Assembly: GCA_023653055.1 (NCBI GenBank)
Contig: JAMNXR010000024.1
Location: 1-32,506 of the forward strand
Reading direction: 5' to 3'
Source: Burkholderiaceae bacterium
Lineage (GTDB): Bacteria > Pseudomonadota > Gammaproteobacteria > Burkholderiales > Burkholderiaceae_B
Length of the DNA stretch: 32,506 nucleotides
The position numbers and the translations under genes are program-made. Below, in pieces: positions 21,656-23,510 of this stretch. Below the pieces are notes generated by a model. The model was not told where the DNA came from and made no database searches. It saw only the letters and a program-made list of their open reading frames with translations. The first letter of the stretch is position 1. Each line of letters starts with the position of its first letter.

Positions 21656-22312
21656 CTAGAGAGTTTCAGGCAAGTCAGCCAACACAGTCGTGGTGGCGCT
21701 GACCTTGTCACCAATCGCGACACGGGGTCGTGAACCTAAAGGCAAGTAGACATCCACGCGCGAGCCAAAGCGGATAAAACCGTATCGCTGACCGCGGTAT
21801 AAATTGTCACCTTGTTTGGTGTAGCAAAGGATACGCTTGGCCACGAGACCTGCCACCTGTACCGCAGTCACAATATGACCGTCGGGCATCCGCAACACCA
21901 TCGCGTTACGCTCATTCTCAAGGGAAGCCTTGTCGAGCGCAGCGTTAAAAAACTTACCTGGAAAATATTGGGTCATCACCACCTCGCCATCCACGGGCGA
22001 ACGGTTGCTGTGCACATTAAACACATTCATAAACACGCTGATTTTGAGCGCTTTGCGATCAGCGTAAGGATCTTGGGTTTCTTCGACCACGACAATTCGG
22101 CCGTCGGCAGGAGAGAGCACAGCACGGGGCTCGGTTGAACCGGAGCGGGCTGGATCACGAAAGAACTGCAGGACAAAAATCGCAATGATCCAAAACAATA
22201 CAGACCAGGCGGGTGACCACCAGGTCACAAGCAAAGCAATCAGAATCGAGCCAGCCAGAAAAGGCCAACCCTCGCGGGCAATAATAGGATGGGGATAGTG
22301 AGGTGTATTCAT
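21656..22312 (-). CDS. psd: Phosphatidylserine decarboxylase proenzyme
   Basis: This 218-residue proenzyme is of the short bacterial type. Hydrophobic N-terminal segments ([33 protein letters not shown]) are followed by [31 protein letters not shown] and the self-cleavage site [10 protein letters not shown], where the Ser becomes the pyruvoyl group. It converts phosphatidylserine to phosphatidylethanolamine. I chose the ATG at 22312 because its protein starts like the family; the frame is open 24 codons further, but through the palindromic insert. It lies in the ilv-psd-pss gene string, downstream of the unusual hairpin, and may depend on readthrough or a local promoter. Confidence 0.94.
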
Positions 22313-22332
22313 TGTAGGTAGAAGGTTAACCC

Positions 22333-22417
22333 AAAAAAACACGCCCCGAGTGAACTGCACCCCAAGAGTTGGATGGGTGTCCAACTTTTGGGGTGCAGTT
22401 CACCGAGGGGCGTGTTT
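22333..22417 (-). terminator. ilvC terminator enlarged by a palindromic insert
   Basis: On the minus strand, outer arms AAACACGCCCC and GGGGCGTGTTT (22407-22417 and 22337-22347) form a perfect 11-bp stem followed by a T-run (22333-22339), a typical terminator after ilvC. Between the arms sits a 52-bp insert that is itself a 23-bp stem. The whole folds as one very long hairpin of about 35 bp. Confidence 0.85.
22351..22402. mobile_element. 52-bp palindromic mini-element with IS3/IS150-like ends
   Basis: It consists of two 23-nt arms (22351-22373 and 22380-22402), complementary at 22 of 23 positions, around a 6-nt centre TGGGTG. Each arm begins TGAACTGCACCCC read inwards, which resembles IS150-subgroup terminal repeats as I remember them. 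Both sides are flanked by CCGAG (22346-22350 and 22403-22407), a likely 5-bp target duplication. Nothing lies between the ends, so it cannot encode a transposase. Confidence 0.65.

Positions 22418-22442: not shown

Positions 22443-23510
<1,068 letters not shown>

Follow-up and report, generated by a model that had tools for sequence, protein, structure and literature searches.

A 52-bp palindrome apparently derived from the left end of an IS3-family insertion sequence in the loop of the ilvC terminator of a Burkholderiaceae bacterium

Insertion sequences (ISs) that strike palindromes are already known. In the IS3 family, five of five ISPsy8 copies are described as lying on the axis of a REP palindrome, flanked by 3-bp direct repeats, and IS1397 and ISKpn1 are cited in the same article as further IS3-family elements that insert at the REP symmetry axis (PMC1525189). 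The IS1182-family element IS1272/TnSha1 targets hairpins with no primary sequence consensus, among them terminators confirmed by RNA-seq (PMC4923244). Small, terminator-like SPRITE repeats lie near the 3' ends of genes in Streptococcus pneumoniae and were proposed to be co-opted terminators (PMC3049150). The locus described here, in a window of 32,506 nt (the whole stretch of DNA analysed), carries a 52-bp palindrome in the loop of a terminator that separates ilvC from psd. As the possible scar of a full IS it resembles the footprint of nearly precise excision of Tn10, in which the body is lost between short direct repeats near the ends and a short end-derived remnant stays between the target duplications; unlike the elements considered here, Tn10 is a composite transposon of another family and is not known to target terminators.

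An IS3-family transposase and insertion at a palindrome centre link our locus to ISPsy8, but where ISPsy8 strikes a single repeated REP consensus (PMC1525189), most targets in the present case are intrinsic terminators that end in T-runs. Hairpin targets, including terminators, are shared with IS1272/TnSha1; that element differs in family, in blunt insertion, in deletion of part of the stem and in the absence of a duplication (PMC4923244). SPRITE brings its own T-tract, and the SPRITE portion of PMC3049150 describes no IS-end palindrome inside a pre-existing loop. Nor are the 52-mers REP or REPIN sequences, which are high-copy palindromes with a RAYT-type transposase, whereas the 52-mers have two copies in the genome and an IS3-family partner transposase. 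A search of the open-access literature, with subscription papers outside its scope, found neither IS3-family elements aimed at terminators nor IR-only palindromes in terminator loops. This weakly suggests that an IS3-family lineage aimed at terminator loops, together with its IR-only palindromes, is what is apparently new here.

The features of the locus are collected in Table 1. The original prediction placed a palindrome in the terminator loop between ilvC and psd with CCGAG on both sides, and the sequence, a repeat search and folding all confirm that arrangement. The repeat search returned arms of 24 nt each at 22350-22373 and 22380-22403, 96% complementary and separated by a 6-nt spacer. 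A 121-nt segment folds at -70.4 kcal/mol, compared with -32.8 (sd 3.9) for 200 shuffles (z -9.7), which rules out a chance inverted repeat.

Table 1. Features of the ilvC-psd interval, in order of position in the window
Feature	Position	Strand	Description or basis
psd, phosphatidylserine decarboxylase, downstream of terminator	21656..22312	-	NCBIfam NF003680, E 5.6e-112
A-run on the plus strand, the terminator U-tract	22333..22339	-	sequence; T7 kept in relatives
ilvC terminator 3' half-stem, AAACACGCCCC on the plus strand	22337..22347	-	sequence, fold
Target duplication, left copy, 5 bp	22346..22350	.	CCGAG on plus, CTCGG on minus; relatives' empty sites
52-bp IS-derived palindrome	22351..22402	.	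presumably IS150-like left-end hairpin, terminal repeat closing both ends
Target duplication, right copy, 5 bp	22403..22407	.	relatives' empty sites
ilvC terminator 5' half-stem, GGGGCGTGTTT on the plus strand	22407..22417	-	sequence, fold
ilvC, ketol-acid reductoisomerase, upstream of terminator	22443..23492	-	NCBIfam NF004017, E 4e-169

Since ilvC and psd both lie on the minus strand, the ilvC terminator is read on that strand and the A-run serves as its U-tract. The split host site has the makings of an intrinsic (Rho-independent) terminator: it lies beyond a stop codon, and a T-run comes directly behind its GC-rich stem. A simple terminator scan did not flag the ilvC-psd site, because only loops of 3-8 nt were allowed. 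The predicted fold energy of the terminator is -18.3 kcal/mol for the empty site and -64.4 kcal/mol for the occupied one, and termination probably survives the palindrome, because in the modelled fold the outer stem and the U-tract are intact; the suggested influence on readthrough into psd is conjecture. The longest psd ORF (21656-22384) begins at a TTG within the palindrome, so that ORF callers could mis-start the gene; the start conserved among relatives is the ATG at 22312.

The ilvC loci of 30 genomes in the genus, the window being one of them, were read downstream of the stop codon and then recounted. At 25 of the 30 loci the terminator is a short hairpin with no insert, and the predicted empty site, AAACACGCCCCTCGGGGCGTGTTTTTTT, occurs letter for letter in three relatives (L132, L133, L144). 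The gain of the window over the empty site is 57 bp, that is, the 52-bp unit plus a 5-bp duplication. From these sequence comparisons, the short hairpins and exact empty sites in relatives argue that the insertion in the window is derived, and that it consists of 52 bp plus the duplication CTCGG. The earlier proposal of an insertion into the loop with a target duplication, left empty in relatives, is thereby borne out. An ancestral, host-made long terminator hairpin that resembles IS ends by chance, which would have undone that proposal, could appeal to two of the 30 loci (L148, L150), where the terminator loop is somewhat longer but contains no IS sequence; with the short hairpin in 25 of 30 loci, an insert 98% similar to IS left ends over 45 bp and a duplication around it, that reading is extremely improbable, and the empty sites refute it. 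A foldback copying the left flank was also rejected: it predicts an inverted CCGAG after the insert on the minus strand, where the direct repeat CTCGG is found.

The same loop carries a different, degenerate IS-like palindrome (TGAAAGGCGCCC...GGGCGCAGTTCA) in another species (L154, genome G029), so that it has been struck at least twice. In the nearest relative by ilvC identity (L131, genome G031) the contig stops inside the ilvC terminator loop; contigs C71 and C55 of that genome (L131, L160) end and begin within this one loop.

Over 45 of its 52 bp, the palindrome matches the left ends of ISs resident in the same genome at 98% (G000:C26:104, C24:99044 and C10:104). We designate the parent types IS-A and IS-B. 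IS-A was assembled in pieces: three left ends read TGAACTGCACCCCAAAAGTTGGACACTCATCCAACTCTTGGGGTGTTTTTCATG, in which ATG is the orfA start, and the right end was inferred from separate contigs (C11, C18, C25, C30). IS-B is complete on C14, with 1451 bp, ends TGAACTGACCCC, terminal repeats that carry TG...CA tips, and OrfA and OrfB in frames 0 and 2. OrfA contains HTH_28/HTH_Tnp_1 domains and OrfB contains rve, rve_2 and HTH_21, with a match to NF033516 transpos_IS3 at E 3.3e-106. An HTH OrfA, an rve-type DDE OrfB in a different frame, TG...CA tips and duplications of 3-5 bp place the parent elements in the IS3 family. Within it we take them to be IS150-like, judging from the 175-aa double-HTH OrfA.

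The first 52 bp of both IS-A and IS-B form an imperfect palindrome that stops where the start codon of orfA begins. In length the solo 52-mer equals this left hairpin, but its inner end is made of a complete terminal repeat. As RNA, 20 distinct left ends of ISs of this kind have predicted folds of between -25.9 and -39.9 kcal/mol, and in IS-A-like left ends the inner arm places a Shine-Dalgarno-like GGGGTG stretch and a T-run directly before the orfA ATG. From this arrangement we infer that the left-end hairpin may screen orfA from outside transcripts, by termination or by hiding the ribosome site. The insert had been read as two IS ends, to be abandoned if no IS shared the arm. A resident IS does carry the arm, and the IS origin stands; the notion of an unrelated pair of ends does not, the palindrome being one left-end hairpin closed by the terminal repeat.

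A second 52-mer, derived from IS-B, lies elsewhere in this genome at C16:19241-19292 (L017, L127), in the loop of a terminator between AAAAAAAACCCGTCGAAG and AAGCGGGTCTTTTTT. No aligned empty site was found for it among eight relatives; two of the eight matched the flank, and there a different gene follows. An A-run (at least 5 A in six bases) adjoins all 11 IS ends with a readable flank in this genome, and at 10 of the 11 a GC-rich half stem also stands between the A-run and the element. When the flanks of both solo palindromes and one remnant are included, 14 of 16 flanks pass the half-stem criterion, compared with 1343 of 19926 random window positions; the flanks that fail are that of the C25 end and one of the two around the ilvC-psd palindrome. 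At C30:7338-7384 (L006, L126) an IS left-end hairpin is fused directly to T8. This remnant seems to have lost the body of the IS together with one half of the stem of the host terminator, and the IS hairpin looks like the present terminator.

Among full ISs, we considered 13 with both ends, picked by eye from a motif scan that also returned one-ended ISs, which were left aside. Hairpins with a stem and T-run are split by 10 of these 13, as against 117 of 1227 control sites, the misses being L194, L197 and L205; duplications of 3-4 bp flank 10 of 13, as against 37 of 1227. The ten measured duplications are 3 or 4 bp long, and that of the window is 5 bp. Two plasmid-borne IS left ends (L248, L251) show no half terminator, and two others (L250, L246) are doubtful. 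Similar insertions recur in many bacteria, and a preference of this IS family for terminators is the apparent reason.

For solo palindromes, a pattern scan of one genome per species required TGAACTG at both ends and gave 81 sites, one of which is an IS left end and not a solo (L081); palindromes closed by TGTACTG-type right ends, as in Streptococcus, are invisible to it. The flanks were joined less one copy of the duplicate and folded, and a site was scored positive with at least 6 spanning pairs and a T-run. By this measure 54 of the 81 sites split a hairpin, compared with 76 of 810 positions drawn at random from the same loci, and 27 fail; the spanning stem alone does not discriminate (72 of 81 against 507 of 810). 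Duplications of at least 3 bp flank 34 of the 81 sites and 27 of the 810 random ones, with lengths of 3, 4, 5 and 6 bp in 22, 8, 2 and 2 sites; at another 34 of the 81 the junction has no repeated base at all. The hosts belong to several phyla and include Betaproteobacteria, Gammaproteobacteria and Firmicutes. E. coli genomes and phages, each queried with one 52-mer, gave no match. The expectation that further copies would also sit in terminator loops thus holds for the second 52-mer at C16 and for sites in other genomes.

Some individual sites depart from the common pattern. In Pseudomonas, the palindromes at L048, L100, L237 and L238 split REP-like hairpins with GGGGCAAGCCCGCTCCCAC-type flanks, those at L048, L100 and L237 resembling REPs and not terminators, so that the target may be hairpins in general. 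At L037 (genome G021) the palindrome lies in a terminator and has one arm tandemly doubled, hinting at replication slippage. L081, on the reverse strand near one end, is a decayed IS with an interrupted OrfA and a perfect 52-bp palindromic left end that runs into the orfA ATG; to judge from its sequence, in-place conversion of the inner tip does occur.

Very probably, the 52-mer is a derivative of an IS3-family element, presumably IS150-like, that consists of the left-end hairpin with terminal repeats and stands where a transposase inserted into the ilvC terminator loop, the parents favouring hairpin loops and mostly those of intrinsic terminators. The IS origin, the insertion point, the duplication, the empty site and the recurrence elsewhere are read directly from the sequences. 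As we envisage it, the IS transposase would have inserted into the loop and duplicated CTCGG, the left end of the parent forming a hairpin of left terminal repeat, short loop and inner arm. Insertion of the full IS would split the host terminator; around the solo palindrome the half-stems could still close over the compact hairpin, and the terminator would be lengthened, not broken. Several details sit poorly with this explanation. The last 7 bp of the palindrome, CAGTTCA after GTG, differ from the inferred IS-A right end, GGGGTCAGTTCA, and right ends of the type GTGCAGTTCA occur in none of the 13 full ISs, so that the 52-mer of the window could not come from an IS of today by collapse alone. 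The 27 sites of the species scan that fail the test for stem and T-run, the 34 with no repeated junction base, the plasmid left ends L248 and L251 and the 5-bp length of the duplication in the window also count against it.

The chances appear even that the solo palindrome is a scar: a full IS would have entered the loop, and slippage or recombination would later have removed its body, so that what stayed behind has the length of the left hairpin. The partners would be the inner arm of the left hairpin and the right terminal repeat, two direct repeats separated by about 1.4 kb, and the collapse would amount to a near-precise excision aided by template switching among left repeat, inner arm and right repeat, a mechanism already known to perfect hairpins (PMC8794818). 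In keeping with scars, palindromes are few and mostly dissimilar within a genome (47 in the 28 genomes covered by the copy count, from among those behind the 81 sites, with 1-6 in each). Their length also tracks the hairpin geometry of the local IS lineage, at 55 bp in Streptococcus mitis, where 48 bp agree exactly with the IS, 54 in S. ratti, 49 in Marinomonas and 47 in Cupriavidus. If both ends had fused, one tip should be of the left type and the other of the right type, and this is seen in 9 of 67 TTGGA-type palindromes, and the remnant at C30:7338, with the rest of the IS and half the terminator stem gone, also fits such a loss. However, in 18 of the 67, among them that of the window, both tips are of the left type, GCACCCC, and no such right end exists among the 13 full ISs; for these 18 an extra templated step would be needed. 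No strain pair with a full IS and a scar at the same site was found; the contigs of G031 break in this very loop.

The chance falls a little short of even that the IS transposase recognised the terminal repeat at each end of the palindrome and moved the palindrome itself, as a MITE-like unit of 47-55 bp that perhaps travelled as an extruded hairpin. The 52-mer does share with MITEs terminal repeats common to an autonomous IS, a lack of coding capacity and a target duplication. As to multiple copies at separate sites, the genomes give two different 52-mers here, 1-6 mostly unlike copies in each of 28 others, and a near-identical pair with individual duplications in G040. Such movement would leave what is seen, a unit that has a full terminal repeat on each side and is bounded by an exact duplication, and a perfect palindromic left end, as in L081, would supply a second usable end. 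In G040, two 47-mers that differ by one base lie in two terminators on two replicons, with duplications GATG and TGCT, and were the only matches at up to 3 mismatches; genome G032 has two identical 53-mers. One of the latter lacks a duplication, however, and a full IS with the same 47-bp hairpin geometry exists in Cupriavidus campinensis (L247), so that the two G040 copies could have arisen in parallel as scars of an IS since lost. Their value as a private deletion proving mobility is weakened accordingly. The low copy number also speaks against mobility, as does length, since a duplex of 52 bp would probably be too stiff and too short to form the circle through which IS3-family elements transpose. 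Transposition of a non-autonomous element, as first proposed for this site, therefore keeps its IS origin and its target duplication, with movement of its own as one candidate route and collapse in place at least as likely. We regard as unlikely the broadest version, in which a cross-phylum IS3-family lineage homes to terminator hairpins, brings a terminator-like left end and spawns free-living transposable palindromes of 47-55 bp, hardly larger than a pair of terminal repeats, that would move from loop to loop, probably as extruded hairpins, and lengthen terminators without breaking them.

A mobile element that aims at terminator loops would have a near-neutral site beside nearly all operons. 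IS decay would be a source of new long terminators, provided that the remnants left behind keep or strengthen termination. TGAACTG arms in a terminator loop offer a simple sequence marker of past IS activity. Whether the shape of a DNA or RNA hairpin can direct insertion also becomes open to test in this system. A palindrome that moves by itself would rank with the smallest transposable units and would be hard to reconcile with a circular intermediate in the IS3 family.
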